A stretch of 64,000 nt of DNA, from positions 992,001 through 1,056,000 of the forward strand of contig NZ_BEWN01000001.1 in assembly GCF_002723955.1 (NCBI RefSeq). The letters are read 5' to 3'. This stretch comes from Gluconobacter frateurii. GTDB lineage: Bacteria > Pseudomonadota > Alphaproteobacteria > Acetobacterales > Acetobacteraceae. Position numbers and translations under genes: made by a program. Below the pieces are notes generated by a model. It did no database searches. It had not been told where the DNA came from and saw only the letters and a program-made list of their open reading frames with translations. This document shows, one piece after another, positions 570-60,299 of the stretch (position 1 is the stretch's first letter; every line of letters begins with the position of its first letter).

Positions 570-1223
570 TCATGGCGACATCTCGCAGCGCTCTTTTTCC
601 AAAGTATGAAGATTTTGTGCCAGTCCCTGTAGAGACATCTTCAGGCCGAAATGGAAACCTTCATCAGGGTCGCTCTGAAGGATCTGATGCCACGCCAAGG
701 CTGCAACCGGATAGCGTAACAGAAGAGACTGGAGATCCGGACTCTGGTTATGATCGGGGCGTTTTTCGGCAAATGCCTGCTCTTCGATCGTAAAGCCGAT
801 GACAAAGTAGAGCGTGGAAAAAGTCCCCCAGGTGGCTGTGCGATCATCTGCACCGGCTTCCTTAAGGCTGGAGATCATCTGGGAACTGATGCGGGCCACG
901 TTATCGGAAAGCGGATAAGTTCTTGCCAGAAAGCGGGCCCCGTCACGGTGAGCCAGCAATGCCTGCCTGACTTCGCAGGAAATTCTGAAGAACATTTCCT
1001 GCCATTTTTCCGCAACGACCGTGGTCGTTGCTACCTGTTCGAGAAGTGTGTCAGCCACCGCTTCGAACAACGCGTCCTTATTCGCAAAATGCCAGTAGAG
1101 TGAGGGAACCTGTACGTCCAGCATGTCTGCCAGCTTGCGCATTGTCAGACCTTCCATTCCCAGCATGTCCAGCAACTGCAGTGCTGAACTGATGACCTGC
1201 TCCCTTACAATTTTCGCACTCAC
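570..1223 (-). CDS. TetR family transcriptional regulator
   Basis: A 217-residue TetR-type repressor. The N-terminal helix-turn-helix spans about residues 26-47 (LTMRKLADMLDVQVPSLYWHF, with the usual SLYWHFANK end of the recognition helix region). The rest is an all-helical ligand and dimer domain of the tetracycline-repressor C-terminal type. It is divergently transcribed from the FAD monooxygenase at 1308. Two perfect inverted repeats lie between the two starts, so autorepression and repression of the monooxygenase is the natural inference. The ligand is unknown, probably an aromatic or polyketide-like compound if it matches the target enzyme's substrate. Confidence 0.9.
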   Translation of the reverse strand: MSAKIVREQVISSALQLLDMLGMEGLTMRKLADMLDVQVPSLYWHFANKDALFEAVADTLLEQVATTTVVAEKWQEMFFRISCEVRQALLAHRDGARFLARTYPLSDNVARISSQMISSLKEAGADDRTATWGTFSTLYFVIGFTIEEQAFAEKRPDHNQSPDLQSLLLRYPVAALAWHQILQSDPDEGFHFGLKMSLQGLAQNLHTLEKERCEMSP

Positions 1224-1253
1224 GGCGTCCTCGTCTCCTCCTTGTCCTTACAA

Positions 1254-1289
1254 CCTAATACCGTTAGGCTGCGAATCTAACAATGTTAG
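1254..1289. promoter_or_regulatory. Two inverted repeats, probable TetR operators
   Basis: Between the divergent starts are CCTAATACCGTTAGG (1254-1268, perfect 5-base arms) and CTAACAATGTTAG (1277-1289, perfect 5-base arms, with AA/TT extending the match further out). Both contain the same CTAA/TTAG half-site. They sit 19-54 bases upstream of the monooxygenase start and 31-66 bases upstream of the regulator start, where a repressor would block both promoters. Binding by the neighbouring TetR protein is inferred. Confidence 0.75.
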
Positions 1290-1307
1290 TTTCGAGGGGT
1301 GCAGACC

Positions 1308-2759
1308 ATGAAAACTTCGTATGATGTATTGGTTTGCGGTGCGGGCCCCGTGGGATTGTGGCTGGCCTGCGAGCTGAAACTTGCCCAAATCGATGTCGCA
1401 GTCCTCGACCGACGGCCGACCCGGACGGCGGAATCACGCGCACTGGCGATCCATGGGCGGACATTGGAAATGTTCGGTCTACGCGGTTGTGTGGAAGACT
1501 TTCTTGCAGCCGGACAGAAAATACCCCTGATGGAATACGGAGCCCTGGACACGCGGCTTGAATTTTCCTCTTTTGAAAGCCGCTTTCCTTTCACTCTGTT
1601 TCTCCGTCAGACCAAAACGGAAGAATTTCTGGAAAAGCGCGCCTTGGCACTTGGTGTACCTTTGCTCCGTGAAACGGAAGTCACTCAGGTCAAAGAGGAT
1701 GGGGCCGAGGTGCAGGTGACCACTTCCCAAGGGCAGTTCTCTGCCGCGTGGCTGGTTGGTGCCGACGGTGCACGCAGCCTGGTTCGGCATCAGGCGGCCA
1801 TCAACTTTGACGGCTTTGATGGGCGTATCACCGCGATGCTGGGAGATGTGGTTCTGGCGAAGCCGCCAGAGGGAGGCGGCGTGCTGTCGATGGTGACGTC
1901 TCGCGGCGCCCTCATGATGTCTCCCCTGGGCGACGGTGCGCATCATCGGGTCATCGCCATTGATGCGGAGCGGTCGTCGGTGCCAAAGGAGACACCGCTC
2001 ACCGTTGCAGAACTGGCGTCTGCTGCATTGAAAATCTCCGGCAAAGATTATGGAATGGGCCAAGCGTCCTGGCTGTCCCGCTTTACGGATGCCACGCGTC
2101 TTGCGTCTGCTTACAGAAAAGGGCGTATTCTGCTGGCGGGAGACGCTGCGCATATTCACGCCCCGATGGGCGGCCAGGGACTGAACGTCGGTCTACAGGA
2201 CGCGATGAATCTCGGCTGGAAGCTGGCCATGGTCGTTAAAAAACAGGCTCCTGAAAGCCTGCTTAATACCTATCATTCCGAGCGTAGACCGGTCGGTCAG
2301 ATGTTGTTTGACAACACGTTGGCGCAGGTTGCCCTGGCAACCAACTTTACGCCGCCAAATCTGTCATTACGAAATACAATGAATGACATCCTGTCTTTCC
2401 CTGACGTAAACCGCCGCCTTGCTTCAGAAATTTCGGGATTTGGTATCGCCTACGGATACGACAGCGTTGTACCCGAAACTCTACCAATGCATCTGGCTTC
2501 CGGTAAACGCGTTCCGGATGTCGACCTGATCGTCGAGAACCAGTCAGCGACACTCTATGGGTGCTTGGAAAAGGGTGAATGGGTGCATCTGGCACTTTCT
2601 TCCAAAGAACAGGATGTTTCAGAATTTCCTGACTGGCTGGATCCACATATCGTCAAACACATCACGGCGGATTGCGTTAATGACAGTCCCAGTTTGGCTG
2701 GTATTTCATCTGTATTGATCCGCCCGGATGGTTACGCCCATAGCGTGACAATGATCTGA
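1308..2759 (+). CDS. FAD-dependent aromatic monooxygenase
   Basis: A 483-residue class A flavoprotein monooxygenase of the PheA/TfdB/PgaE type. The N-terminal Rossmann motif is GAGPVG (residues 11-16). A DG motif lies at GADGARSLVR (151-160) and the second FAD motif is LLAGDAAHIHAPMGGQGLN (about 275-293). Such enzymes use NAD(P)H and O2 to hydroxylate phenols, anthraquinones or tetracycline-like rings in the cytoplasm. I chose the ATG at 1308 because GAGGGG lies 8 bases upstream; an in-frame GTG at 1299 has no such site. It is divergent from the TetR gene and followed after 95 bases by an alpha/beta hydrolase that may act on its product. The substrate is not predictable; tetracycline inactivation is possible but unproven. 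Confidence 0.9.
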   Translation: MKTSYDVLVCGAGPVGLWLACELKLAQIDVAVLDRRPTRTAESRALAIHGRTLEMFGLRGCVEDFLAAGQKIPLMEYGALDTRLEFSSFESRFPFTLFLRQTKTEEFLEKRALALGVPLLRETEVTQVKEDGAEVQVTTSQGQFSAAWLVGADGARSLVRHQAAINFDGFDGRITAMLGDVVLAKPPEGGGVLSMVTSRGALMMSPLGDGAHHRVIAIDAERSSVPKETPLTVAELASAALKISGKDYGMGQASWLSRFTDATRLASAYRKGRILLAGDAAHIHAPMGGQGLNVGLQDAMNLGWKLAMVVKKQAPESLLNTYHSERRPVGQMLFDNTLAQVALATNFTPPNLSLRNTMNDILSFPDVNRRLASEISGFGIAYGYDSVVPETLPMHLASGKRVPDVDLIVENQSATLYGCLEKGEWVHLALSSKEQDVSEFPDWLDPHIVKHITADCVNDSPSLAGISSVLIRPDGYAHSVTMI

Positions 2760-4042: not shown

Positions 4043-4106
4043 GGTACCCAATAATGTCACGTGAAGACAGGATTAAAAGTCTGCCGCTACGGAAGCCAAC
4101 AGGATG

Positions 4107-4670
4107 TTAGCGGAAAGCCTCCTCAACCAGCTGATCGATCGTAAGAGGCGCGTTGCTGTGCCGGATCAGCGGCGCAAGTAATCCGTCTATCGCAAGCACG
4201 GCCAGTCCATGAACCTTCGCCCAGAGAGAGGCCATGGCTGCTTCCGGGGAGATACCGGACTGGTCGGATGCCGGAAGAGCCGCCAGTCTGGCAAAAGCCC
4301 GGGCTGAGGCTGTCGCAAGGGCCGGATGATCCGGATCGATGGCATCACTACGAAACATCAGTGTGAAAAGTCCCGGATTGGCGATCGCAAAACGAACGTA
4401 AGCCAGCCCGACATCCCGAGGCTCTCTGGCGTGCTCGGGTGACATGGCTTCAGAAAGCTCATCGAAACCCTGTGCGGCCAAGGCACTCAGCAGGCCGGTC
4501 AGGTTGCCGAAATGCGGGGCTGCGGCCGTCGCAGAGACGCCGGCATTCCGGGTGATCGCCCTGAGCTTCAGGGACGCAATGCCGTCCTTTTCCAGCATAA
4601 GCCGGGCCGTGTTCACCAAGGCCTTTTGCAGATCTCCATGATGATAGCTGCTTTTCGTGGGCGTCTTCAT
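4107..4670 (-). CDS. TetR family regulator, YHHGDL/WHG type
   Basis: A 187-residue TetR regulator. It opens with the SYHHGDLQKALV block (residues 8-19) typical of the TetR subfamily with a WHG-type C-terminal domain. The helix-turn-helix covers about residues 36-57 (LKLRAITRNAGVSATAAAPHF); the usual LYRHF end is altered to AAPHF. It is divergent from the carotenoid oxygenase at 4766, and two palindromes with TTTAC/GTAAA arms lie between. Repression of the oxygenase operon is inferred. A regulator of the same subfamily is at 18857-19465. Confidence 0.9.
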   Translation of the reverse strand: MKTPTKSSYHHGDLQKALVNTARLMLEKDGIASLKLRAITRNAGVSATAAAPHFGNLTGLLSALAAQGFDELSEAMSPEHAREPRDVGLAYVRFAIANPGLFTLMFRSDAIDPDHPALATASARAFARLAALPASDQSGISPEAAMASLWAKVHGLAVLAIDGLLAPLIRHSNAPLTIDQLVEEAFR

Positions 4671-4690
4671 CCTGATCCTCCAGACGTAAA

Positions 4691-4751
4691 TTTACACTGT
4701 AAAAATAACTTGACGAGCACTTTCTTCATCCGTCATTCTTTACGATGTAAA
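4691..4751. promoter_or_regulatory. Twin TTTACnnnGTAAA operators before the carotenoid oxygenase
   Basis: TTTACACTGTAAA (4691-4703) and CTTTACGATGTAAAG (4738-4752) are two copies of the same palindrome with centres 48 bases apart. A poor sigma-70-like -35 (TTGACG, 4710-4715) lies between them. The second copy almost touches the oxygenase ribosome site GGAGA (4756-4760), so bound repressor would block initiation. Recognition by the divergent TetR protein is inferred from position and symmetry. Confidence 0.8.
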
Positions 4752-4765
4752 GACCGGAGAAAATG

Positions 4766-6049
4766 ATGGTGACCAATAGAGCGCCGATCGAGCAGGAAAT
4801 CGATGCCTGCGGACTTTCCGTACAGGGAAAATTGCCGGCTGGTCTGCGAGGGACGCTATATCGGAATGGCCCCAATCCTCGTCCGGGAACGCCGGAAGGT
4901 CACTGGTTCGTGGGAGATGGCATGATCCATGCCCTCTCGTTCGTGGACGGGCGATGTTCCTACCGCAACCGTTGGGTCCTGCCGCAGACAGAACACGCTC
5001 TTGGGAAAGCCAATACGCACGCCATTTTCCATGCGGGGTCACTGATGGCTCTGGAAGAAGCACACCCACCGGTGGCCCTGGCGCCGTCGACGCTGACACG
5101 TTCTGGCGCGTCTTACCCGTCTGGTCCTTTCACGGCACATCCGAAGCATGACCCTTTAACGGGGGAGCTCATCTTTTTTGGCTACGCTGCCGATGGGGCT
5201 GGATCACGTGCCATCCGTTGTGGAGCTTTGGACAGGTCTGGTTACCTGAGCTGGGAAACACGCTTTGAGGCGCCATTCAGCAGCATGATCCATGATGCAG
5301 CCGTGACGCCTCGACACATTGCCCTGCCGGTCTTTCCACTGGTCAGGGAGTCTGTCGAAACATTCAGCTTTGCGTGGCGTCCTGATCTGGGCAGTTATCT
5401 GGCTGTGCTGGAACGTGGAGGGGCTGGTGACACCGTGCGGTGGTATGAGGCACCGACCGTCTATGCCTTTCATATTGCCAATGCATGGGAGGACCAGGAG
5501 CGCCTCTATTTCGACCTGTTCGTGTATGACACGCCTCCACTGTTTCCCGGTCCGGACGGGCAGCCGCCCTCGCAGAGACGGGGTCGCCCCTGCAGATGGA
5601 GCGTGGCGCTCACCAATCACGCGCCGGTCCGCGTCGAGCCCTTGTATGATATGTGTGGCGAATTCGGACGGATCGATGATCGCCTCGCCGGAAGCCGGTA
5701 TGACCAGATCTACTGCACAAGCCGCGTTTATTCACAGCAGTCGGGCTTTCAGGCTATCGCACGGCTCGATCTGAGGCAGGGAACAGTCGATCAGTTCGAT
5801 TTCGGAAGGCAGGCTTCGGTCTCGGAACCGGTCTTCGTACCGCGCCACCCCTGTGCCAGATCGGATGACGGCTGGCTTTTGAGCGTGATCTGGCGACCCG
5901 ATTTTTCTTCGTCGCGCCTGGCCGTTTTTGATGCCGCCCATGTCGCCGATGGTCCGGTTGCTTCCGTAATCCTGCCGCAGCGTGTGCCTGACGGCTTTCA
6001 CGGTAGTTTCGTGCCGGATGTTCTTCTGGCCGGGGAGCTGTCGCGATGA
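4766..6049 (+). CDS. Carotenoid cleavage oxygenase (RPE65 family)
   Basis: A 427-428 residue non-haem iron oxygenase of the carotenoid/stilbene cleavage family, a seven-bladed beta-propeller. The N-terminal signature GLRGTLYRNGPNPRPGT is present (about residues 28-44), followed by GDGMIH. The four iron-binding histidines can be assigned as His126 (TAHPKHDP), His177 (MIHDAA), His237 (AFHIAN) and His413 (DGFHGSFV), counted from the ATG at 4763. That ATG and the next at 4766 are adjacent; GGAGA sits 5 bases before 4766, so I prefer the second. The gene overlaps the following membrane-protein gene by ATGA and is divergent from a TetR gene. It is shorter than cyanobacterial enzymes (about 480-490). 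The substrate may be a carotenoid, apocarotenoid or stilbene; no carotenoid biosynthesis gene is in view. Confidence 0.92.
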   Translation: MVTNRAPIEQEIDACGLSVQGKLPAGLRGTLYRNGPNPRPGTPEGHWFVGDGMIHALSFVDGRCSYRNRWVLPQTEHALGKANTHAIFHAGSLMALEEAHPPVALAPSTLTRSGASYPSGPFTAHPKHDPLTGELIFFGYAADGAGSRAIRCGALDRSGYLSWETRFEAPFSSMIHDAAVTPRHIALPVFPLVRESVETFSFAWRPDLGSYLAVLERGGAGDTVRWYEAPTVYAFHIANAWEDQERLYFDLFVYDTPPLFPGPDGQPPSQRRGRPCRWSVALTNHAPVRVEPLYDMCGEFGRIDDRLAGSRYDQIYCTSRVYSQQSGFQAIARLDLRQGTVDQFDFGRQASVSEPVFVPRHPCARSDDGWLLSVIWRPDFSSSRLAVFDAAHVADGPVASVILPQRVPDGFHGSFVPDVLLAGELSR

Positions 6050-6639
6050 GCCGGGCTGCTACTTTAAAGGCTCTTCTACTCGAAGCCGGCGGATTGCTGC
6101 TGTTCTGGGGCTGTGATGCGCTCGGCTATGAGCATTATGCCTCGATAGCAGTGCTGGCTTTTGTTCTGGCTGACGGACTACGTCGCTGGCAGGGTGCTCT
6201 GGGCTTTCCGCGGGTCTGGTATCTGTTCAACGGGCTGGCTCTGGCACTGGCCGCGCTGGACATCGTGACAAGACGAGTGGCTTGGCCTCCATTTGAGAGT
6301 GTTGCCGCCAACCTGCTGATTGCGGGCATGTTTGTCATCGGCGCACTTTGGCGCAAACCGTTGGTGCAGGACATTGCCGAACAGCGGCAGGGTAAACCCT
6401 TCCCGACAGACCGGCATGATCTGCAGACGTTTTTTCGGGCGTATACATGGGTCTGGGCCGCTTATTTTGCGGTACGGGCTTTTGTCTGGTTGTGGATGGC
6501 GCAGCAACTGCCTGTGGCAAGAGCCCATGCGCTGCAGGGTATACTCGGGCCGGTCACCCTCTTTCTCATGATCGCACTGAGTTTCCAGGGGCAGAAGTTG
6601 TTCCGCGGTTTGAACCGGCTGGGACTGTTCCGGGAATGA
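6046..6639 (+). CDS. Inner-membrane protein, YciB/IspZ (septation-like) relative
   Basis: A 197-residue, very hydrophobic protein with about six membrane segments (near residues 11-27, 30-42, 58-74, 87-103, 132-152 and 163-179). Spacing of the segments and the basic motif WRKPLVQD after the fourth helix resemble the YciB/IspZ intracellular septation family, but similarity is weak. Its ATG overlaps the oxygenase stop (ATGA, 6046-6049), so the two are translationally coupled and probably work together. A role in handling or delivering a lipophilic substrate or product of the oxygenase is a guess from context only. Confidence 0.7.
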   Translation: MSRAATLKALLLEAGGLLLFWGCDALGYEHYASIAVLAFVLADGLRRWQGALGFPRVWYLFNGLALALAALDIVTRRVAWPPFESVAANLLIAGMFVIGALWRKPLVQDIAEQRQGKPFPTDRHDLQTFFRAYTWVWAAYFAVRAFVWLWMAQQLPVARAHALQGILGPVTLFLMIALSFQGQKLFRGLNRLGLFRE

Positions 6640-8020: not shown

Positions 8021-8211
8021 GCCCGCCCTCATCAAATTATCGCACTGAAGTATGATCCGCTTTCGAGACAACGACAATCCGTTATGAAACGGATACGAAG
8101 GTTACTATATGGCGAACAACCGATGCGTATTTAGATAATGTTCACTTATGAGATCAAAAAAACAGCTTAACGTCCCACATGACGGCGAAACAGGTCTGTT
8201 TTCACCTCGTT

Positions 8212-8922
8212 TTAAAGGGGAAACATCCTTTCGAATGCTTTCTGGCCCGTTTTTGTGAACCGGATAACTCGGCTGCCGGGGGCTTGAAGCGCCCACCCCT
8301 GTTGAATGATGAAGTCCATGAGACTTCGGCCCAGTGGACCTCCAAGGTGATACCGGCGTTCACTCCAGTCCAGACAGTTCCGGCAATGCGGGGGATGCTT
8401 CTTCGATAAACCTGCCAGGTCCACTCCCAGTGAAACAAGAAAGCCTTCTCCCTGTTGCGTGAGGCTTAACGCGTCTCCATCGAGCACCAGAAACGCCCGA
8501 GCCAGAAGACTGTCGTACATCCGCACACCGGCTTCGCCTGCCAGATGTCGGTAGCAGATACGCGCCGCTCGGAGGGCGGGATCTCGAGGCCCTGGACGCG
8601 TTCTCAAATGCCCCTGAGACGCTGCAAATCCCATGATGACTTCCAGCAGGTTCGCAACGTGCGGACCGGCCAACTGGAAATAACGATGTCGCCCCTGACT
8701 GCACCCGACGATCAGACCACCATCCATCAGCTTTCGGACGTGACCTGAGACTGTAGGCGCTGAAATACCTGCTTCAGAGGCCAGTTCAGTCGCGGTCAGG
8801 GCCTTGCCAGACATGAGGGCTGTCAGAATGTTAGCACGTGCAGGATCACCAATCAGAGCAGCAATTCGCGCGATGTCTGGGCCGTCTTTCATGCTTTGAT
8901 CTGCACCGAAACATCCGGACAT
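8212..8922 (-). CDS. ArsR family transcriptional regulator
   Basis: A 236-residue winged-helix regulator. The N-terminal ArsR domain covers about residues 17-100, with DPARANILTAL (26-36) and the recognition helix in GISAPTVSGHVRKL (52-65). The extra C-terminal region ends with a CRNCLDWSERRYHLGG block, as found in a subgroup of long ArsR regulators; its two cysteines could serve redox or metal sensing. The start at 8922 has TAGGAG 6 bases upstream; the later ATG at 8892 has none. It is divergent, across 43 bases, from the ABM/ACT pair and presumably controls it. Confidence 0.88.
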   Translation of the reverse strand: MSGCFGADQSMKDGPDIARIAALIGDPARANILTALMSGKALTATELASEAGISAPTVSGHVRKLMDGGLIVGCSQGRHRYFQLAGPHVANLLEVIMGFAASQGHLRTRPGPRDPALRAARICYRHLAGEAGVRMYDSLLARAFLVLDGDALSLTQQGEGFLVSLGVDLAGLSKKHPPHCRNCLDWSERRYHLGGPLGRSLMDFIIQQGWALQAPGSRVIRFTKTGQKAFERMFPL

Positions 8923-8965
8923 CGCAAGCTCCTAAGATCATCCCGAAACAACCGGGAGACCCAGT

Positions 8966-9331
8966 ATGATCGCTGTTCTGTTCGAAGCATGGCCCACGCG
9001 GCAAGGAAAAAAGCAGTATGCATCGTTAGCTGCACATCTGAAGTCCGAACTTGAGACCGTGGAGGGGTTTGTCTCAGTCGAGCGCTTCCAGAGTCTGACT
9101 GACCCGGACAAGCTGCTGTCATTATCGTTTTTCCGGGACGAAAACGCCGTTGCAGCCTGGAGACGTCTGTCAGCGCATCGCATGGCACAGGCGGCAGGGC
9201 GGGACGGCGTATTTTCGGATTATCGTTTGCGGGTTGCGCAGGTTGTCCGGAATTATGGGCTGAGCGACCGGGAGGAAGCACCGTCCGATAGCAGGGCAGT
9301 CCATGCAGCCGTGGAGAATGATCATGTTTGA
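8966..9331 (+). CDS. Antibiotic biosynthesis monooxygenase (ABM) domain protein
   Basis: A 121-residue dimeric alpha-beta barrel protein of the ABM family. Visible features are the first strand MIAVLFEAWP, a GFVSVERFQSL segment (about 34-44), SLSFFRDENAVAAWRRL (51-67) and HRMAQAAGRDGVFSDYRL. Such proteins are cofactor-free monooxygenases of quinone-like substrates or haem-degrading enzymes. GGGAGA six bases before the ATG is a good ribosome site. The stop overlaps the next gene by 8 bases, and the ArsR gene is divergent upstream. Substrate unknown. Confidence 0.8.
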   Translation: MIAVLFEAWPTRQGKKQYASLAAHLKSELETVEGFVSVERFQSLTDPDKLLSLSFFRDENAVAAWRRLSAHRMAQAAGRDGVFSDYRLRVAQVVRNYGLSDREEAPSDSRAVHAAVENDHV

Positions 9332-9710: not shown

Positions 9711-9719
9711 GAAAGGCTT

Positions 9720-10328: not shown

Positions 10329-10376
10329 GTGAATATCCTGAAAAATAAATGGATAGCCGTCCCGTCTTACATCAGC

Positions 10377-47689: not shown

Positions 47690-47693
47690 CCTT

Positions 47694-48375: not shown

Positions 48376-48387
48376 CCTGGTCCCCAA

Positions 48388-48407
48388 TATGTGCTGCGTG
48401 ATACATA
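48388..48407. promoter_or_regulatory. Operator copy before tetR (autoregulation)
   Basis: TATGTGCTGCGTGATACATA has TATGT/ACATA arms and lies 12 bases upstream of the tetR ATG. It matches the site at 47694-47713 in reverse complement. Confidence 0.78.
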
Positions 48408-48537
48408 TAGGTGAGGCGTCTGAAGAAGAACAGAACTGCGCTTTCTAAAACCCGATTGGGCGGATTTACCAATCTGGACCATTTTTCAAATGTGATCGTT
48501 TTCGTAATGCTTCAAGTGCAGGATTTTCGCTTCAAGC

Positions 48538-49443: not shown

Positions 49444-49510
49444 AGGATTGAGCAAGAGAATCAGAGGAATTGTGATAGAGACTGCATCAATATGATATTA
49501 TTAATCAAGA

Positions 49511-50374: not shown

Positions 50375-50535
50375 GGATCGGTAGCGGTTGTCAGGAAGCT
50401 GATTTTCCCGACCCCTATGCCCGTAAGGAGGCGTAAGCGGACTTGCTGCTTACGCCTTCATATCAGACAATCTGAAGCACAGACGAATGGTCTCAAAGCG
50501 GACGACTTTGCTCACCCTCGCCTGAATGGCCTTAT

Positions 50536-51557
50536 TTACCCAGGTGTATCTCGAAGCCCGGTCAGATCGGGATGGTCCTGACTGCGTTTGTTTTCTGAAG
50601 GTTTGATGAAGCGCGTCGCGAGCAGCAGCGCGCCATGAAATGCTGCGAGCAGTCCGAATACCTCGGCGAAAGCCGTTGACGTCAAGCGCGGCTCGCCGAC
50701 TGCTACCAGTCTCCATCCGAGGAAGGTGGCGCACGCTGTAGTCAGTGTTGGGCCTCCAATCCTTTGCATGATGTTCAGTGCGGTCGTCGCCATCGGGATA
50801 TCTGTGCGTGCGATCGACGCGTATCCTGCGCTCATCGCCGGAATGCCGACGGCGCCATGAACAGGCCTGTCCGCTCGGGAGAGGCACCGCAGGCGTGGAT
50901 GAGCCAGTCTGGTAACAGCAGCTGACCAGCGAATGACACCCCGTTCGTCAGAAACATGATGACCGCCGACACCGAAAACGCAGGCACACGCAACAGGCGC
51001 AGATCGATCAGCGCGTCGTCCCCCTTGCGTCGCGCGGATCGGACATACAGGACGGCAAGGATAAAGGCCGCGGGCCCGACCGGGACATTGAGAAGAAAGA
51101 TCCAGCGCCATGACGCGACGGAGACGATGGCTCCTGCGACGACCGGCCCAAGAAGTGGTGCGAGCAGAACCGGTGCCGTCATCGCGCTCGCGACCCTCGG
51201 CATCTGCCGCCCCGCCACACGGGCAACCGTCATCTGCGTCATCGGCGCGAGCAAGCCCCCGCCATGCCTTAGCAGACGGAACGCGATCATCGACGGCGCC
51301 GACCAGGCCAGCGCGCATAGGCCTGATGTCAGCGTGAAGGCATCGAAGCACCATAAATAGACCGTTCGCCCCCCGATGCGGCTCACGAGCCATCCGTTTA
51401 GCGGCAGCGTCAGGGCGAGCGCCAGCAGATAGCCGCTGACCACCCACTGAATGCTTGAAAACGGTGCGCGCAGGGTGGCGACGAGATCGGGGAGCGACAC
51501 ATTGACGATCGTGGCGTCCAGTTGCGTCATGAAAGACCCGATCGCCGCGACGCTCAC
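50536..51557 (-). pseudogene. DHA2-type MFS drug exporter, frameshifted with internal deletion
   Basis: The N-terminal half is clear (SFMTQLDATIVNVSLPDL, GWLVSRIGGRTVYLW, WRWIFLLNVPVG, typical of 14-helix EmrB-like exporters) and ends at about 50832. The C-terminal tail resumes one frame over (VHGAVGIPAMSAGYASIART, LNIMQRIGGPTLTTACATFL). Around 70-90 residues between the two are missing, and the N-terminal start codon is also lost (a stop precedes GTG at 51557). The exporter is not functional. Confidence 0.88.
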
Positions 51558-51671
51558 GATTTTTCATGTGCCCGGAGGCAGCTTATCCGCGCCCTGCGAT
51601 GGTAGCGGCATTTGAAGTTTCATGGGCGGCCTTACTAAAAGCCCTAATACGCAATGCCGGACACCATGAGC

Positions 51672-52238
51672 TCACGCATCCAGTGCGATCGCGTCGCTCG
51701 TCGTCACGCGGCCAAGGCGGGGGAAGATTTCCTCTGAGGCAAAACGCTGCATCTCTTCCGTGAAGGTGGACATGATATCTTCGGCGAGCACGACGTTGTA
51801 CCCGTGCTCATGCGCCGCTCGAGCGGTAGATTCCACCCCCAGATTTGTCGCGATCCCGCCGAGCACGATCGTGGTGATCCCACGTCGCCGCAACTGGAGG
51901 TCGAGATCCGTACCGTAAAATGCCCCCCATTGCCGTTTCGTGACACGCAGATCGTCCGGTTCGGCAAGTCCGTCGACCAGTTCCGCCCAATCTGGCGCGA
52001 AGCCTCCCTGCGGGGAGAAGGAGCGGTCGACAACCGTATGCGCAGCGTCCGCAAAATCTGGCGCGAACGCGACGTTCACGAGAATGACGGGAGCACCGGA
52101 GGCCCGGAAACGCGCTGCAAGTTCTTTCGATCGTTCGACGACTGCTTCGCCCGATATTGGGGCCAAAGGCAGCCCCGTGATACCCTTCTGGAGATCGATC
52201 AGGACGAGGGCTGTTTTGGTTGCTTGAAGCGAAGTCAT
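51672..52238 (-). CDS. yecD: Isochorismatase-fold hydrolase, YecD type
   Basis: A 188-residue isochorismatase-like protein. It has VLIDLQKGI (12-20) with Asp15, VTKRQWGAFYGTDLDLQLRR (99-118) with Lys101, and VLGGIATNLGVESTAR (125-140). In catalytic members (for example nicotinamidases) the last motif holds a nucleophilic Cys; here Gly134 takes its place. The whole pattern, including KRQWGAFYGTDL and TN-x-GVESTAR, matches E. coli YecD, whose role is not established. It is divergent from a TetR gene. Confidence 0.87.
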   Translation of the reverse strand: MTSLQATKTALVLIDLQKGITGLPLAPISGEAVVERSKELAARFRASGAPVILVNVAFAPDFADAAHTVVDRSFSPQGGFAPDWAELVDGLAEPDDLRVTKRQWGAFYGTDLDLQLRRRGITTIVLGGIATNLGVESTARAAHEHGYNVVLAEDIMSTFTEEMQRFASEEIFPRLGRVTTSDAIALDA

Positions 52239-52312
52239 GATATGACCTTTCTCTGGGGATCATTGAACCGCCACTCCGCACCGCTGTCCGGTACATGCGG
52301 AGACGTTAAAAG

Positions 52313-52359
52313 TTGAGTGGATACTCAAGTAGGAGTATTATTTGAGTATGAGCTCAAAT
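52313..52359. promoter_or_regulatory. Two operators before yecD and tetR
   Basis: TTGAGTGGATACTCAA (52313-52328) is a perfect 16-base palindrome. A second repeat, ATTTGAG (52340-52346) and CTCAAAT (52353-52359), has perfect 7-base arms and covers the tetR start codon. TTGAGTA/TACTCAA is common to both. Repressor binding there would also hinder ribosome access. Confidence 0.8.
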
Positions 52360-53004
52360 ACGTCAAGAGCAAAACGAGCAACGCTTCAACCGCTGCGAGC
52401 AGCCGGACGTCAGCGTGTCGAAGAACTGCTGGCAGCCGCTTCGGATCTGATGGCAGAGCGCGGCTATGAGGCGACGACCATGGCGGAAATTGCAGCAAGA
52501 GCCGGAGCGAAGATCGGCTCGCTTTATCGCTTTTTTCCGAACAAGGAGGCGGTGGCGGACGCGCTAGTGCAGCGGCATGTCACCATTCTGGAGGAAGAAT
52601 ACGCAGCTCTCGCCCAACGGGCGGCCACGCTTTCTCCAGAAGCATTGGGGGATGTGTTGATCGAGTTGCTCATCGCGTTGCATCCAGGTGTGAAATCTCT
52701 GTCTGCGTTAATGGAGGCACGGACAGATAGCATGGAGATTCGCGAGCGTGCACGCGGGCATGCCATAGCCGGAATCGCGGCTGCGCTGCGTGTCTGCGCG
52801 CCGGGATTGGATGAGATGCTGGCGAAAGATATCGCGGCCGTCGTTCTGAACACCATGAAAGCCTTGCGCAGTATGCTCGCGAAGGAGGCCCCCACCACAC
52901 CTGGTGCTCCCGACGAGTTACGGCGGATGAACCGTCTTTATCTTTCGGACCGGCTGGAACCCTTCCGAAACATTGGAGCCAGTGCAATGGATACGAAGTC
53001 GTAA
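52348..53004 (+). CDS. TetR family transcriptional regulator
   Basis: A 218-residue TetR regulator with GRQRVEELLAAASDLMAERG (about 20-39) and a helix-turn-helix ending KIGSLYRFFPNKEAV (about 57-71). A C-terminal domain of the TetR_C_17-like type follows. The start is ambiguous: AGGAG (52331-52335) is 6 bases before a TTG at 52342, which gives two extra residues, but 12 bases before the ATG at 52348. Both lie within the operator. It is divergent from the YecD-like gene and likely controls it. Confidence 0.9.
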   Translation: MSSNTSRAKRATLQPLRAAGRQRVEELLAAASDLMAERGYEATTMAEIAARAGAKIGSLYRFFPNKEAVADALVQRHVTILEEEYAALAQRAATLSPEALGDVLIELLIALHPGVKSLSALMEARTDSMEIRERARGHAIAGIAAALRVCAPGLDEMLAKDIAAVVLNTMKALRSMLAKEAPTTPGAPDELRRMNRLYLSDRLEPFRNIGASAMDTKS

Positions 53005-53195: not shown

Positions 53196-53945
53196 TCACA
53201 GTTTGGAACCGCCGTCGGCCCGGATGACGTCCCCTGTGATCCAACGGGCATCATCACCAGCAAGGAACACGGTCACCCCGGCAATGTCCTCCGGTGTCGC
53301 CACACGCTTGATCGCCTGGATACCCAGAGTGAATTCCCGGCCCTCCTGCGTTTCGACGAAGCTTGATGACATGTCGTTGGCGACGACACCCGGCGCGACC
53401 GCGTTGACGCGAATGTCCCGCGCGCCCAGTTCCGCTGCCAGATGGGTCACCAAGGTCGAGATTGCTCCCTTCGAGGCGGCATAGGCCGACAGTTCGCCGA
53501 CGGTTGTGCGGACCGCCAGCGATGAGGTGAGAATGATGCTGCTTCCGGCGTTCATGACAGGAGATAACTGCTGCACCAGAAAGAAAGGTGCTCTGACGTT
53601 AACAGAAAACATGTCGTCAAAGTCTTCGACTGTCGTGTCTTCGAGGCGGGCTGGCCGCGCAATTCCAGCATTGGCAACGAGAATATCGAGTTTTCCGGAA
53701 CAAATCTGACGAGTGCGCTCGGATAAGTCGAAAGTGCCTTGAATGTCACGCAAATCAGCCAGAATGGCATGGGCCTTGCCGCCGTTTCCTGCAATTTCCG
53801 CAACTACGGCCTGTGCCGCCTGCTCGCTTGAACTGTAATGGACCAGCACCTCGGCGCCGGCGCAAGCGAGAGCAAGTGCTATCGCGCGACCCATGCCACG
53901 AGACGCGCCCGTGACCAAGGCTTTCTTGCCATGAAGTTGAGCCAT
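53196..53945 (-). CDS. SDR family oxidoreductase
   Basis: A 249-residue SDR with TGASRGMG (residues about 12-19), DILVANAGIA, SSLAV (catalytic Ser), YAASKGAIS (Tyr/Lys) and the complete C-terminus WITGDVIRADGGSKL. AAGGAAG 7 bases before the ATG at 53945 fixes the start. It is preceded by the MoaF-like gene after 23 bases, so the two are probably co-transcribed; a LysR gene is divergent from them. The TetR gene at 52348 is convergent. Confidence 0.9.
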   Translation of the reverse strand: MAQLHGKKALVTGASRGMGRAIALALACAGAEVLVHYSSSEQAAQAVVAEIAGNGGKAHAILADLRDIQGTFDLSERTRQICSGKLDILVANAGIARPARLEDTTVEDFDDMFSVNVRAPFFLVQQLSPVMNAGSSIILTSSLAVRTTVGELSAYAASKGAISTLVTHLAAELGARDIRVNAVAPGVVANDMSSSFVETQEGREFTLGIQAIKRVATPEDIAGVTVFLAGDDARWITGDVIRADGGSKL

Positions 53946-53968
53946 GGTGTTCTTCCTTGTGTTATTAC

Positions 53969-54289
53969 TTACTCTGAGATCGTGCCGGACATAACGTAGA
54001 AGCTGCCGTCCATCATCGTGTAAAAGGAGCGGGTGGTCTTCGCTTCGAAGTTGTCGCAATGGACAACGGTGGATTTGTCCTCTTCCTGCCAGGAGAGCAG
54101 ATACGATCCTCCCTCCAGAGCCGTCCACTGGAAAGGCACTGTCATTTTGGCGCCTGTTTGCGGACCCTCAAGGAATTCGGCCGTAACGGTTGTGCCGTCA
54201 CCGGCATAGGTGTTCCGAAAGACGAGGCCTTTGCCATAATTCACAACGAAGGAGCGTCCGGAGTAGGGAAATAGGTTAGTCTGGTTCAT
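53969..54289 (-). CDS. MoaF-like small beta-barrel protein
   Basis: A 106-residue protein of the MoaF-like type (lipocalin-like small barrel). Visible blocks are SFVVNYGKGLVFRNTY (13-28), YLLSWQEEDKSTVVHCDNFE (about 64-83) and SFYTMMDGSFYVMSGTI at the end. MoaF is a small partner of unclear role in monoamine metabolism; members also accompany SDRs. AGGA 6 bases before the ATG at 54289 fixes the start. It is the first of the MoaF-SDR pair, divergent from LysR. Confidence 0.8.
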   Translation of the reverse strand: MNQTNLFPYSGRSFVVNYGKGLVFRNTYAGDGTTVTAEFLEGPQTGAKMTVPFQWTALEGGSYLLSWQEEDKSTVVHCDNFEAKTTRSFYTMMDGSFYVMSGTISE

Positions 54290-54446
54290 GCCATTCCTGG
54301 GAAAATGCTGGTGAATGTTGTTGAGGCGCATTACTCGACGACGCCACGTGCAACAGGATAGGCATTGTTCCAGAACCGAAAAACAGGCTCGAGTTCCGTT
54401 CAGATCGGACGTTTACGTCCGCAATTGTCCGATTTATGCTCTAAAA

Positions 54447-55337
54447 ATGGATAATCTCTCTGGCATTTCTGCGTTCGTCTCTGCAGCGGAGACCCTGAGT
54501 TTCGTGGAGGCTGGCCGTCTGCTTGGTGTTTCCGCATCGGCAATCGGGAAAACAATTGCCCGTCTTGAAGGGCGATTGGAGGTACGCCTATTCCACCGCA
54601 ACACCCGCAGCATGAAACTAACGGCGGAAGGGGCGCTCTTCCTTCAACGGTGTCATCGCATTCTGGGAGAACTGGATGCTGCCGAGCAGGAGCTAAGTGA
54701 TATACGGGCTGCGCCAAAAGGAAAGTTACGCGTGAGCCTTCCGGCGATCGGCACGTTGCTGTTACCAACGCTCTCGGAATTCATTCGGCGTTACCCCGAC
54801 GTTGAACTCGACATCGATTTTTCGGATCGAAAAGTGGATCTGATCGACGAAGGCTTCGATGCAGCAGTCCGCATCGGCGATACAGATGACACGCGATTGC
54901 TCAGCCGCAGGCTCGGTGTCTTTCATCGCAACCTCGTCGCATCCCCCAGTTATTTAAACAAGACAGGACGACCCAAGAACACGACAGAGCTACTGCACCA
55001 TACGTGCCTGCTCTACCGGTTTCCCACGACTGGAAAGATCGAATCATGGCCGGTGTCGGGGTGGGAGAGTATTCTGGGCAGCGGGCAGCTATCGACGGTC
55101 AGTTGTAACTCGATCGAGACGCTTATGTATTTTGCTCTTCAAGGACAAGGAGTTGCTTGCCTGCCCGATTTTGAGGTGAGATCGGCCCTCTCTGAGAACA
55201 GGCTGGAACGAGTGTTGGCCACAGAGACTTCCATGCCGCGTGCCATGACGATTTTATGGCCGACCAGCAAACAACTCGCGCCTAAGCTGCGCGCCTTTAT
55301 TGATCTCCTGACATCATGGCTTTCATTGAAGCCGTAG
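54447..55337 (+). CDS. LysR family transcriptional regulator
   Basis: A 296-residue LysR protein with VEAGRLLGVSASAIGKTIAR (about residues 20-39) and RNTRSMKLTAEGALFLQ, and an effector domain from about 90. It starts MDNLSGISAF at 54447; the frame is open upstream without a coding signature. It is divergent from the MoaF-like gene across 157 bases and probably controls the MoaF-SDR pair. Confidence 0.92.
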   Translation: MDNLSGISAFVSAAETLSFVEAGRLLGVSASAIGKTIARLEGRLEVRLFHRNTRSMKLTAEGALFLQRCHRILGELDAAEQELSDIRAAPKGKLRVSLPAIGTLLLPTLSEFIRRYPDVELDIDFSDRKVDLIDEGFDAAVRIGDTDDTRLLSRRLGVFHRNLVASPSYLNKTGRPKNTTELLHHTCLLYRFPTTGKIESWPVSGWESILGSGQLSTVSCNSIETLMYFALQGQGVACLPDFEVRSALSENRLERVLATETSMPRAMTILWPTSKQLAPKLRAFIDLLTSWLSLKP

Positions 55338-55628
55338 CGGCTTCGCTCATGACGTGCGCCGTGAATCTGATCGTACAACCTGACGCTTTATCCCGTAACC
55401 GCAACTAACCCCTGTCAATTCCGGAACCGATTAGCGGACTGAGCAGAGTCCCTCCTTATCCACCTACCTGCTTCGTTCATGTGGAACAGACAGACGGCCC
55501 TCGTCTTCATGTCGGACGTAAAGCTCATGAAATGGGCATCGGGAAAGCGGACGCAATGAGAAACATTATAACAAGATTGCACGGCGTCTTTGACTTGTCT
55601 GGAAGTCTGTCTTGTTCAACAAAGAGAA

Positions 55629-56825: not shown

Positions 56826-57004
56826 AAAAGTACAACTCAGAGCCGACATTCCGTCAGCCGCAACACAGAGAAATGGTTCCAAGCCTGCGTGAGTTGAAAT
56901 GCCTCTCGCAGAGAGAGCCAGAGACGATCGGACAGTCTTTCCCGGAGGCGCCTTTATCCTTGGACGAACGACCTCGGTAAGCACATCGGAAAAGCTTTTT
57001 CAGG

Positions 57005-57208
57005 TCTTTTTTGTGCCTCCCTATATCCGATAATGCGAATAGTTTTACGGACATAGGTCGGCGCTCAAGAGAAGCGATCTTGGTATTTAGGTCCGAAGAA
57101 ATTTTGGAGAGCAGATCAACTGCGGCCGGGTGAGGAGAGGGCAGGCATGGAAAATTTTGGCCTCACAGAATTTGAGAACTCATGATGCCGAACTGAAATC
57201 CCAACATT
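57005..57208. repeat. Direct repeat copy B, with 38-base resolvase-site-like core
   Basis: Diverged copy of 38960-39150 in the same orientation. The core, 57020-57057, has 10-base arms (CCTATATCCG and CGGACATAGG, one mismatch) around 18 bases. The inner sequence ATAATGCGAATAGTTTTA differs from copy A at 4 positions. Downstream, TGAGGAGAG and CATGGAA blocks are shared. The 522-base gap between nhaA and the SnoaL-like gene contains this repeat and no supported gene. Confidence 0.6.
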
Positions 57209-57348: not shown

Positions 57349-57750
57349 TCAGGACGATGCGATGCGCTGCAACTGGAGCGGGTTCATATAATCCCGGATC
57401 AACGTCACCTTGCCGGCACGTCGGGTGATGAACCAGACATAGCTGATGTCTCGGGGAGCGCCATCCGAGATCCTGTGATGGTGGCCTGTGGCTTCCACGA
57501 TCAGTTCATCGCTCACTTCACGCACGTGCACATCGCTGAGCGAGCCGAAGCGAATGAACGTCGGGAGACGCTGCATGTATGCAGCGATAGCATCCCGTCC
57601 CGTCAAACGGGTCGGAGAGCCGTCCGGAGCAAATGGAAACTCATGCACGGCATCTGCATCATAAATCGACATCCAGCCGTCGATATCGCCACGTTCAAGT
57701 GCTTCAAATGCTGTTTCGAGCCAGTTAGGAAGGACAGATGTTGGTGACAT
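57349..57750 (-). CDS. SnoaL-like (NTF2-fold) protein
   Basis: A 133-residue protein with a SnoaL/NTF2-like cone fold: LETAFEALERGDIDGWMSIY (about 11-30), ADAVHEFPFAPDGSP (32-46) and VTLIRDYMNPLQLQ at the end, where an N/D-P-x-x-x-x motif is typical. Such proteins act on small hydrophobic compounds or protect from them. GGAG 8 bases before the start at 57750 is a good ribosome site. Only 29 bases separate it from the divergent TetR gene. Confidence 0.85.
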   Translation of the reverse strand: MSPTSVLPNWLETAFEALERGDIDGWMSIYDADAVHEFPFAPDGSPTRLTGRDAIAAYMQRLPTFIRFGSLSDVHVREVSDELIVEATGHHHRISDGAPRDISYVWFITRRAGKVTLIRDYMNPLQLQRIASS

Positions 57751-57779
57751 GCAGTGCTCTCCGGCATAAATTAAAGACT

Positions 57780-58400
57780 ATGAGTTCAGAGGCTTCACCT
57801 ATAACGGACCGAGAGTCCGAAATGCAACATAAACATCGGGGGCGGCCGCCAGTCGCCCTTCAAGGCATGCTGGAAGCCGCAGATATGCTGTTCGCTCAAA
57901 GTAAACTGCCGGGCTCGGTGACGATGGACGCTATCGCCGCAGCCGCATCTGTCGGGAAAGGAACCTTATTTCGAGCATTTGGTAACCGGGACGGCCTTCT
58001 GGACGCGCTGTGGGCCACAAAGCTCGCCATTCTTAAAGAAAGAGTGACGACCGGTGTCCCACCATTTGACGAAAGCGCTACCCCCCTGGACCGCCTTATT
58101 GCATTTCTCGATTCCATCTTGATGTTTAAGATTGCGAACAGGCACCTGATCCATGCCCGAGAAGCCACCGGGGGATTACTGCAATCTCCGCATTATCGAT
58201 GGATGCATGCGAAGACGAAAAACTTCATTATGGAGGCATCAAATCAGGTTGATGAAGATTATGCGATCTATAGTGCCCACGTCTTACTGTCTGCGCTGCA
58301 TATTGATCTTATCGATGAAATGCTGGCTCAAGGTCTCTCTGTTGACACAATTCGGCGACTTCAGGCTGCCCGAGGAAAAGGCGTCATCCGTATTGTGTAA
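57780..58400 (+). CDS. TetR family transcriptional regulator
   Basis: A 206-residue TetR regulator. The helix-turn-helix is at about residues 47-69 (VTMDAIAAAASVGKGTLFRA), followed by FGNRDGLLDALW. The leader EMQHKHRGRPP before it is typical of TetR regulators paired with SnoaL-like proteins. It starts at MSSEASPITD (57780). It is divergent from the SnoaL-like gene and presumably represses it. Confidence 0.9.
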   Translation: MSSEASPITDRESEMQHKHRGRPPVALQGMLEAADMLFAQSKLPGSVTMDAIAAAASVGKGTLFRAFGNRDGLLDALWATKLAILKERVTTGVPPFDESATPLDRLIAFLDSILMFKIANRHLIHAREATGGLLQSPHYRWMHAKTKNFIMEASNQVDEDYAIYSAHVLLSALHIDLIDEMLAQGLSVDTIRRLQAARGKGVIRIV

Positions 58401-58586: not shown

Positions 58587-59654
58587 TCAGGCGACGGGTT
58601 TTACAGGAGGGTTTACCCTGGCGTCCAGGCCCCCGGTAATGAGGTCCTTGATCCGGGGATCGTCAAGCACGGTGTAGGGGTAGCTGCGCGGGGTCGCGCT
58701 CACTTCGTCAAGGCGCGCTACCTGCTCGGATGACAGCGCCAACTTGGTGGCGGCCAGATTGCTTTCGAGTTGGGCAAGTGTGCGAGGGCCGATAATCGGA
58801 AACGAGCCCTTGGCGGCTACCCAGGCAATGGCGACTTCTCCTGGCGTCACGTCCATCTCTGCCGCGACCTGAAACAGACGGTCAATAATGGCCGTGCGTT
58901 GTGGCGTATTTTCAGGCTGGAAGCCGGCGCCGGCCCAGGCCTCGTTGCGCCGCTCTGTAGCATCTTCTGCCCGATATTTCCCGGTCAGGACACCGCCACC
59001 AAGCGGCGAGAAGGCCACCACACCGAGGCCAAGCGCCCGGGCGGCAGGAATCAATTCATCCTCGGTTGCGCGCTGCACGAGGCTGTGTTCGACTTGGATA
59101 CCCGCAATTGGAACAGCGCCGCGAATCTCCGCGATCGTTGCAGCTCTTGCCACGCGCCATGCTGGGAAATTTGACAGTCCAGCATAGAGGATCTTGCCGG
59201 CACGTGCGAGGTCATCGAACCCCCGCACAATTTCTTCAAGCGGCGTAACACCATCCGAAACATGCGCCCAGTAGATGTCGATGCGGTCGGTCTTGAGCCG
59301 CTTCAGGCTCGCATCGACGGATGACACCATGGCCTGACGACTATTGCCAGTTTCAAGGATGCCGGACGTCGCATTGGTCTTTACTGAGTACTTTGTGGAC
59401 AGAACGAATTCGTTGCGTCGTCCCGCAAGCAGGTTTCCCAGAAATTCCTCGGACTGTCCTTCCTGATAACCGTTGGCAGTATCGATGAAATTCCCGCCCG
59501 CCTCAGCATAAGTGTCCAGAATGCGGCGCGCTTCGTCCGGGTCCGCACCATGTCCACCCCAGGCGCGGCCAAAATTCGCGGTCCCGAGCAGAAGCTCAGA
59601 AACCCTCAGGCCGGTGTGTTCGCCCAAAAGTCTGTATCGCATATTAACTGACAT
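58587..59654 (-). CDS. Aldo/keto reductase
   Basis: A 355-residue AKR with LLLGTANFGRAWGG, the catalytic stretch GGNFIDTANGYQEGQSEE (about 49-66), STKY (Lys), RIDIYWAHVSDG (His) and IAGIQVEHSLVQRATEDE. The C-terminal SFPIIGPRTLAQLESNLAAT is the NADPH site. AAGGA 7 bases before the ATG at 59654 supports the start. It is divergent from the TetR gene at 59742 with a long perfect inverted repeat between. Confidence 0.92.
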   Translation of the reverse strand: MSVNMRYRLLGEHTGLRVSELLLGTANFGRAWGGHGADPDEARRILDTYAEAGGNFIDTANGYQEGQSEEFLGNLLAGRRNEFVLSTKYSVKTNATSGILETGNSRQAMVSSVDASLKRLKTDRIDIYWAHVSDGVTPLEEIVRGFDDLARAGKILYAGLSNFPAWRVARAATIAEIRGAVPIAGIQVEHSLVQRATEDELIPAARALGLGVVAFSPLGGGVLTGKYRAEDATERRNEAWAGAGFQPENTPQRTAIIDRLFQVAAEMDVTPGEVAIAWVAAKGSFPIIGPRTLAQLESNLAATKLALSSEQVARLDEVSATPRSYPYTVLDDPRIKDLITGGLDARVNPPVKPVA

Positions 59655-59683
59655 TCTCATGTCCTTCCGCGAGCAATTACGCT

Positions 59684-59729
59684 ACAAGTGGTTCACTGGC
59701 CCAGATAAACGGACCACTGAACCACTTGT
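59684..59729. promoter_or_regulatory. 12-base perfect inverted repeat between AKR and tetR
   Basis: ACAAGTGGTTCA (59684-59695) pairs perfectly with TGAACCACTTGT (59718-59729) across 22 bases. Each arm includes AGTGG/CCACT elements, so two repressor dimers may bind. It lies between the divergent AKR and tetR starts. Confidence 0.82.
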
Positions 59730-59741
59730 CAAGCGGAACCC

Positions 59742-60299
59742 ATGCGAGCTGACGCCCGAAAAAATTACGACCGCCTTCTCTTGAGCGCACGTGAGGCCAT
59801 CGCAGAAGATGGTGTAAACGTCTCCATGCGTGACATTGCCCGTCGAGCGGGGGTCGGCTTCGCCACACTGTTGCGTCATTTCCCGACCCGGGAAACCTTG
59901 TTTGAGGCTCTGCTGCGAGCAGCTCTCGATGAACTTACCGGGACAGCAGAGAGGCTCGAGAAATCCGCTTCGCCTTCGAACGCCCTACTCTCGTGGCTCA
60001 GCGATGCCGTGAGATTTATGGGAGCCTACAATGGTGTCGTCAGCATGATGTCCATTGCCCTGGAAGACGAGAATTCCGCCCTCCATATCTCCTGCACCAA
60101 CCTGCGGTCGGCAGGCGCTCGGCTCCTTGCTCGTGCTCAAGCCGAAGGAACGGCGCGCAAGGATATCGATGGGACGGATTTATTTGGGCTGATTGGTGCT
60201 CTTGGGTGGCTGGGAGAGCAGCCTTCATTTGCGGCACGCAACAGCCGATTTTTCGATGTCATCACAACGGCTATCATGACCCCGAAAGCCCGCGGGTAA
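59742..60299 (+). CDS. TetR family transcriptional regulator
   Basis: A 185-residue TetR regulator starting MRADARKNYDRLLLSAREAI, with helix-turn-helix at about 29-50 (MRDIARRAGVGFATLLRHF). It belongs to the same group as 34100 and 35794, all paired with an AKR or SDR. The ligand-binding part includes MMSIALEDENSALH. It is divergent from the AKR at 58587. Confidence 0.92.
   Translation: MRADARKNYDRLLLSAREAIAEDGVNVSMRDIARRAGVGFATLLRHFPTRETLFEALLRAALDELTGTAERLEKSASPSNALLSWLSDAVRFMGAYNGVVSMMSIALEDENSALHISCTNLRSAGARLLARAQAEGTARKDIDGTDLFGLIGALGWLGEQPSFAARNSRFFDVITTAIMTPKARG

Follow-up and report, generated by a model that had tools for sequence, protein, structure and literature searches.

Regulator and target genes packed head to head in a chromosomal array of Gluconobacter frateurii appear to be exchanged as joint units

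The stretch analysed here (the window) comprises 64,000 nucleotides of the 3.31 Mb, 10-contig genome of Gluconobacter frateurii (C1:992001-1056000) and is crowded with modules, each a regulator gene beside a presumed target gene. Coordinates are window positions unless prefixed by C1 or C3. Reading of the open reading frames (ORFs), whole-genome searches with helix-turn-helix profiles and Pfam scans of the window ORFs recovered 20 regulators, in agreement with the twenty intact regulators of an initial annotation made from the letters alone. They comprise ten TetR, five LysR, three AraC, one ArsR-like and one XRE-type protein. All ten TetR possess TetR domains, including TetR 4107 (regulators are named by their first coordinate), which is under the TetR_N cut-off but has TetR_C_33; a further TetR_N match is the AraC gene 37466, which was excluded from the TetR count. 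The LysR genes were assigned by the profile search and ORF reading, without individual Pfam runs.

Nineteen of the 20 regulators stand head to head with the next gene, the exception being TetR 47764, which is co-stranded with its hydrolases. The shared gaps are mostly ~110 bp or less. Longer ones separate a LysR from a gene of the MBL fold (383 bp to the ORF start, longer still from a later start) and a short-chain dehydrogenase/reductase (SDR) from a LysR whose start codon is uncertain. The target of LysR 13448 is uncertain, as its divergent neighbour is a 135-residue ORF without Pfam match, and two SDRs lie downstream of it on the same strand. The earlier statement that 18 regulators face their presumed target is correct to within one or two. 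The partners listed in Table 1 include SDRs, aldo-keto reductases (AKRs) and major facilitator superfamily (MFS) transporters. The segment 25137-29205 is a multi-gene unit, so the modules are not all single-gene; by hand count, a third or more of the window genes belong to no regulator/target pair, and some are decayed.

Table 1. Modules M1 to M20 and other features of the window, with strands in brackets; the last column gives matches in same-genus relatives.
Unit	Span	Regulator	Partner gene(s)	Basis and remarks	Relatives
M1	570-2759	TetR (570-1223, -)	FAD aromatic monooxygenase (1299-2759, +)	Pfam; all NCBIfam matches under cut-off; palindrome 1272-1294	0/25
M2	4107-6639	TetR (4107-4670, -)	carotenoid/stilbene oxygenase (4763-6049, +); membrane protein (6046-6639, +)	Pfam	G007 only, 93%
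M3	8212-10328	ArsR-like (8212-8922, -)	ABM monooxygenase (8966-9331, +); ACT protein (9303-9710, +); flavin reductase (9720-10328, -)	Pfam	G013, 92%
M4	13448-14870	LysR (13448-14368, -)	small ORF without Pfam match (14463-14870, +)	target uncertain	0/25
M5	16647-18701	AraC (16647-17468, -)	MFS (about 17550-18701, +)	Pfam	0/25
M6	18857-20972	TetR (18857-19465, -)	aldehyde dehydrogenase (19515-20972, +)	Pfam, NCBIfam	7/25
M7	21293-23169	LysR (21293-22201, -)	AKR (about 22297-23169, +)		6/25, 83-93%
M8	25137-29205	TetR (27247-27882, -)	SDR, SRPBCC, SDR (all -); MFS (27931-29205, +)	Pfam; block	TetR and MFS together in 11/25
M9	31074-32889	XRE/MmyB-like (31074-31907, -)	extended SDR (32002-32889, +)	Pfam	G019, 86%
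M10	32956-34660	TetR 34016 (about 34094-34660, +)	AKR (32956 to about 34020, -)	Pfam; palindrome 34051-34074	0/25
M11	34964-36435	TetR (35794-36435, +)	SDR (34964-35731, -)	Pfam	G013 and G006, 82-83%
M12	36650-38410	AraC with Cupin_6 (37466-38410, +)	SDR (36650-37411, -)	Pfam	G010 and G011, just 64-65%
M13	39820-42098	LysR (39820-40713, -)	MBL-fold hydrolase (41097-42098, +)		4/25, 78-79%
M14	42292-44068	LysR (42292-43263, -)	muconolactone-isomerase-like (43296-43613, +); DUF2000 (43622-44068, +)		0/25
M15	45873-48411	TetR (47764-48387, -)	two alpha/beta hydrolases (-)	Pfam; all on one strand; inverted repeats 47690-47714 / 48387-48411 flank TetR 47764	46680-48439 in G014, 89%
M16	48538-50374	AraC (48538-49455, -)	SDR (49511-50374, +)	Pfam (AraC)	8/25
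M17	50450-53004	TetR (52342-53004, +)	decayed EmrB-type MFS; isochorismatase-like hydrolase (51672-52238, -)	Pfam	9/25
M18	53196-55337	LysR (54315-55337, +; start uncertain)	SDR (53196-54128, -)		G006, 79%
M19	57349-58400	TetR (57738-58400, +)	SnoaL-like (57349-57750, -)	Pfam	4/25, 66-67%
M20	58587-60299	TetR (59742-60299, +)	AKR (58587-59660, -)	predicted double operator 59685-59728	0/25
Gene fragments	23436-23826			two fragments at a joint	
IS5-type element relic	42099-42259			both ends present; between M13 and M14	
Repeated noncoding element	56853-57057 (+)			~190 nt; ends in a terminator-like hairpin and the palindrome CTAT(G/A)TCCGATAAT...ACGGACATAG	

Genome-wide profile searches (E up to 0.001) gave 23 TetR, 31 LysR and 14 AraC matches, including one TetR and one LysR under the curated cut-off and excluding the AraC gene that matches TetR_N from the TetR. 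The window holds 10 of the 23 TetR (0.44 expected), 5 of the 31 LysR (0.60) and 3 of the 14 AraC (0.27), which means that 18 of 68 matches fall within 1.9% of the genome. Compared to these 18, the densest 64 kb elsewhere (stretches starting outside C1:910-1060 kb) contains only 6, and none of 2000 random placements brought 18 into any 64 kb. The clustering of regulators exceeds chance. Moreover, the array extends left to about C1:977 kb, with five further divergent regulators (AraC, TetR, AraC, LysR and LysR) in C1:977-991 kb, and the 24 TetR_N matches of the host genome are the most among the 26 genus genomes searched (3-19 in the others).

The head-to-head layout is ordinary for LysR and AraC in the host genome, and is commoner in the window than elsewhere for TetR only. 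According to one automatic gene caller, 20/25 callable LysR, 6/8 AraC and 4/12 TetR outside the window are divergent within 400 bp, with five further matches not callable. If the five members of the array to the left of the window are taken out, these values become 18/23, 4/6 and 3/11, respectively. By the same caller, 8/9 TetR, 4/4 LysR and 3/3 AraC in the window are divergent, one LysR at 1.26 kb only, its adjacent small ORF being uncalled; TetR 34016 and LysR 54315 escaped the caller and were added manually. Since divergence is the norm for LysR and AraC here, the locus might be an ordinary accessory region in which common divergent pairs became concentrated by chance. About 60% of mycobacterial TetR genes are likewise divergent (PMC4482099), and common features of neighbour regulators were already known (PMC2395238). 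This explanation is already weakened by the scan statistic, and the host count of TetR_N also argues against it; we consider it unlikely.

The window DNA was compared to relatives in four pieces, three against all 25 same-genus genomes and one against 24 of them plus 16 other relatives; the latter set lacked G041, so that the modules of that piece were scored in the other 24. Presence was scored at the DNA level, at which diverged homologues would escape. Fourteen of the 20 modules have both partners in 1-11 same-genus relatives each. None of the 25 same-genus genomes keeps the region as a unit, and the comparison across related genomes that the initial annotation had proposed found modules present or absent singly, the fullest relative (G019) having 7/20 modules, or 8/21 blocks if the NhaA block is counted. 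The match ends tend to coincide with module boundaries (for example 4090-6639, 8199-10496, 18828-21063, 21290-23265, 34964-36418, 39604-42098, 46680-48439, 48516-50434 and 53200-55339).

In 109 match rows selected by hand, 58 of 60 genome-level cases show both partners; the other two, which lie at contig ends, have the regulator alone, and no case has only the partner. At the locus level, with 66 weaker rows added, 63 of 75 loci have both partners, 10 the regulator only and 2 the partner only. As a control, blocks lying 66-523 bp apart in the window are contiguous in 0 of the 77 genome cases in which either is present (1 of 77 with laxer spacing), of which 27 involve the NhaA block, which has no regulator. 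Of the 15 cases in which a genome has both of two blocks that adjoin in the window, 3 show them contiguous. New neighbours were also seen: in G013, M3 adjoins M16, 40 kb away in the window, and in G002, G014 and G024, M7 adjoins NhaA, 34 kb away. Judged from these comparisons, partners usually co-occur, modules come and go singly, neighbours are reshuffled and, as shown below, module DNA is often closer than the genomes that carry it. For the 14 modules open to this comparison, regulator and target are, at the level of DNA matches, inherited together by horizontal transfer. As partners about 100 bp apart stay joined and blocks separated by a few hundred bp do not, the unit of transfer appears to be a switch with its effector rather than a stretch of DNA.

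The same data bear on the proposal that the window is one stress-response or catabolic island, in which the enzymes of a single pathway or programme are inherited and kept as a block. Similar enzyme classes do recur in the window (SDR, AKR, MFS and glutathione S-transferase, GST), as this proposal would expect. However, no relative keeps the block, neighbours are not kept together, and there are 20 separate regulators with readable operators that differ, which makes a single island very improbable. The initial view of a region that collects single-switch units rather than one pathway is supported instead, as partners usually stay joined and neighbouring blocks almost never do.

To compare modules with their genomes, one core-like locus (MCE-type transport genes, recognised by eye) was taken as reference; most relatives share 70-76% identity with it, G004 81% and G020 88%. 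Modules are more similar than this locus in 60 of 71 module-genome pairs (NhaA rows included), and by at least 8 points in 42; examples are M7 in G016 (93% vs 70%), M2 in G007 (93% vs 74%) and M3 in G013 (92% vs 73%). Several modules also have copies on plasmids. M9 and M10 are 95% identical to a piece of the conjugative plasmid pA of Komagataeibacter xylinus, and M5 is about 93% identical to a segment of plasmid pGX5 of K. xylinus E25, where AraC/MFS is joined within about 40 bp to a GST-...-TetR/MFS block, with M6 and M7 lying between in the window. M8 matches Gluconobacter plasmids at about 83% and is found on Komagataeibacter plasmids too, and copies of M13 and M17 reside on Acetobacter and Gluconobacter plasmids. 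In addition, annotated regions of pGX5, of A. vaccinii plasmid unnamed2 and of G. albidus pGS1191_1 hold smaller runs of like modules. Outside the genus, relatives of the M20 AKR at 78-80% identity (86% for one whose gene is divided among contigs) occur in Azospirillum, Allorhizobium, Rhizobium, Methylobacterium, Thalassospira, Izhakiella, Stenotrophomonas, Variovorax and a Burkholderiaceae metagenome-assembled genome. As to signs of an integrated plasmid or integrative element, no tRNA was found within the window, and no plasmid backbone gene was recognised among its ORFs, the flanks being inspected by eye only. From sequence matches, several modules sit on plasmids, some of them conjugative, and relics of insertion sequences (IS) and genes lie at some joints.

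To the left of the array, a transposase-like ORF was recognised by eye at C1:968.2 kb, and both ends of the IS5-type relic have matches in the DNA surrounding this ORF. Of the two fragments at 23436-23826, one resembles the beginning of an ORF at C1:973.6-975.9 kb that looks TonB-receptor-like by eye, and the other resembles the 3' part of SDR 49511; a bit of an SDR also lies at a joint near 39604-39763. AKR 24633-25088 and the EmrB-type MFS 50450-51567 are broken by internal loss relative to longer plasmid copies, and 30506-30796 is a LysR remnant (weak match). Given two broken enzyme genes and this remnant, modules also appear to die. Beside the remnant, 29650-31004 carries an F420-oxidoreductase-like gene. 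Part of this segment adjoins the AraC/SDR module in G006, G015 and G021; it is perhaps a decayed further module.

The repeated noncoding element contains a dif-like symmetric palindrome (TATGTCCGATAA, about 6 nt, TTAACGGACATA). Its other copies in this genome are the palindrome alone at 38976-39014, a fragment at 21098-21165, C3:489903-490090 and C1:976101-976210, which puts the dif-like element at a joint and on the left margin of the array; two further joints carry partial copies. It is common in same-genus genomes and on Gluconobacter plasmids (in PLSDB, Gluconobacter only, 8/8 records), where copies adjoin toxin-antitoxin, transporter/regulator and TetR-linked genes. Rfam gave no match (five sources at the gathering threshold; 501 bases at E up to 1), no viral contig has the exact palindrome pattern, and phage records yielded no match. 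Another repeat of about 270 bp (39257-39528) recurs at C3:450094 and in several same-genus genomes at 74-83%.

These positions, and the plasmid copies beside toxin-antitoxin and regulator genes, would suit a ~190-nt recombination site or anchor for gain and swap of regulator/enzyme units, and with it a dedicated exchange route for modules in a cassette system unlike integrons. Against such a system, the dif-like element is not at every joint, and its spacer varies, being 6 nt in most copies read and longer in the two window copies and the C1:976 kb copy. Moreover, none of the three copies on the WSH-004 plasmid brackets modules on both sides, no repeat family common to all joints was found (repeats of at least 22 nt, among the 20 largest families listed), and no recombinase or integrase gene was recognised among the window ORFs by eye and in the Pfam scans made. 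It is thus very improbable that the element plays this part, and we give little credence to a dedicated cassette or site-specific recombination system having built the array. Integron cassette arrays are arrays of small exchangeable units, and the window shares this feature; unlike them, it lacks a site at every joint and an integrase recognised within it, and consists of divergent pairs with their own promoters. The pdif modules of Acinetobacter plasmids are small modules, often toxin-antitoxin pairs, beside short dif-like sites. Plasmid-borne small modules beside such sites are seen here too, but modules are not enclosed by the dif-like site on both sides, and recombination there would be hypothetical.

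The gaps were searched for candidate operators. Of at least seven clear palindromes initially proposed, only a part stood. Palindromes in 3 of 20 gaps (1272-1294, 34051-34074 and 59685-59728) beat all 200 shuffles as single sequences, and that at 52339-52360 reached p 0.02. As the other 16 gaps did not beat shuffles at 0.05, palindromes alone are a weak guide to modules. A repeat search added a long inverted pair at 19476-19556 and the pair flanking TetR 47764. Alignment with relatives backs the palindromes at 19476-19556, 52339-52360 and 59685-59728, and the shared gap holds a conserved palindrome for the TetR modules M6, M17 and M20 only. In the candidate inverted operator pair of M6, the left arm is identical in 8/8 sequences and the right arm differs at a few bases; M17 has the palindrome TTTGAG-N6-CTCAAA in 10/10 aligned gaps. 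For M20, TetR is divergent in 8 of the 9 loci with an AKR of at least 77.5% identity (TetR 54-62%), and these eight belong to named genomes of other genera. In those eight and in the window, the gap has promoter boxes read by eye, TTGACA and one like TTATAT; a palindrome resembling GGATCACTGATCC occupies the promoter spacer, and the gap holds another palindrome besides. The gaps of LysR/AKR, AraC/SDR and TetR/MFS modules have conserved stretches without motif assignment. The predicted motifs of M6, M17 and M20 differ from one another, as separate switches require, which supports such separate control. Action of each regulator on its neighbour is a prediction, to which these three modules add operators conserved in position and shape.

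Module substrates are proposed from the enzyme families only, and a chemical-response role is plausible. Gluconobacter SDRs and an AKR are reported to reduce patulin, aldehydes and quinones (PMC11926874).

Several results weigh against the reading as exchanged regulator units. M1, M4, M5, M10, M14 and M20 have no same-genus DNA match, so that linkage in the genus could be followed for the other fourteen. At 12 of the 75 loci a single partner was matched: three of these are at contig ends, two are incomplete M8 copies, six match at 64-69% and look like paralogues, and the remaining one is a 77% M6 TetR in G014, which has a complete M6 elsewhere. Owing to common ancestry among the relatives, the counts are not independent and test values are descriptive only. 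In 11 of 71 pairs (M12, M13, M17, M19 and NhaA) the module is no more similar than the core locus, and GC content gives no island signal (0.564 in the window, 0.562 as the mean of ten control stretches). Some neighbours do stay close: M7 and M8 are contiguous in two (G008 and G019) of five genomes having both, M6 and M7 are close together in G002, and M9 and M10 lie side by side on K. xylinus plasmid pA, which speaks against full independence. The M20 pair is separable outside the genus, as TetR was not found, or matched weakly, in 12 of 20 AKR loci, with a weak match in one only of the 11 loci beyond the nine described above.

Beyond the last module, an MFS exporter (60536-61700, -) without a divergent regulator of its own is near the Tet(A)/Tet(B)/Tet(C) family model of NCBIfam but under its cut-off (424 vs 475 bits). 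From 63212 to C1:1060 kb, an SbmA-like transporter (by eye; only a weak ABC-transporter match in NCBIfam) is followed by a PmbA-like protease (NCBIfam), another TldD/PmbA-like ORF and thioredoxin-like ORFs; these genes may form a unit for the import or processing of peptides. This right flank is accessory too, its first 7.7 kb being matched in 2 of 25 relatives, and therefore allows no clean empty-site comparison. Further right, a run of phage-like ORFs (by eye) at C1:1076-1107 kb is probably a prophage. On the left, the cupin/PdxA-like/LysR unit at C1:988.4-991.4 kb has the same gene order as 98085-101083 of the WSH-004 plasmid NZ_MZ127818.1, by annotation comparison only.

Altogether, we propose, with a probability of a little under 0.8, that the window belongs to a chromosomal array of ~25 modules (about C1:977-1055 kb) made of horizontally exchanged "neighbour regulator" units. 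Each module would pair a one-component regulator with an enzyme or exporter of the detoxification type, transcribed head to head from a gap that carries the regulator's own operator. A TetR-type repressor would occupy operators that cover the enzyme promoter and would leave them on binding its ligand, be this a reactive carbonyl, a quinone, a phenol or a drug-like compound; in M20, the repressor at both gap palindromes would shut the AKR promoter until a ligand lifts it. Because switch, operator and effector arrive together, a module should be functional wherever it lands. Plasmids may deliver the modules, and IS-mediated or short-homology recombination may join them, so that a dedicated capture enzyme would not be needed.

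In E. coli, neighbour regulators were mostly acquired with their targets and were named "selfish regulons" (Price, Dehal and Arkin 2008, PMC2395238). In their testable features, namely specific regulators that adjoin and mostly diverge from their targets, and joint horizontal acquisition, the present modules behave as such regulons, as far as sequence comparison goes. However, those of E. coli are described there as scattered over the genome, whereas ~25 are packed here in one stretch, in which linkage was measured within and between units. Similar to the divergent repressor pairs of TetR/QacR type (PMC4482099), which have palindromic operators, the layout is divergent within 200 bp, with targets beyond efflux and, in M6, M17 and M20, conserved palindromes as candidate operators; unlike them, just 10 of the 20 window units are TetR-type, and ligands and repression are predicted. 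Judged by titles and abstract openings, no description of such an array was found among the literature matches listed. New here are the packing of ~25 neighbour-regulator units in one stretch and the measured contrast in linkage within and between units. Co-movement of regulator and target is known from E. coli, and the array would follow the same rule at high density and with an internal control. It may also serve as a catalogue of compact sensor-enzyme pairs, some with readable operators, which are candidate biosensors from industrially used bacteria, and as a place to test how such units accumulate.

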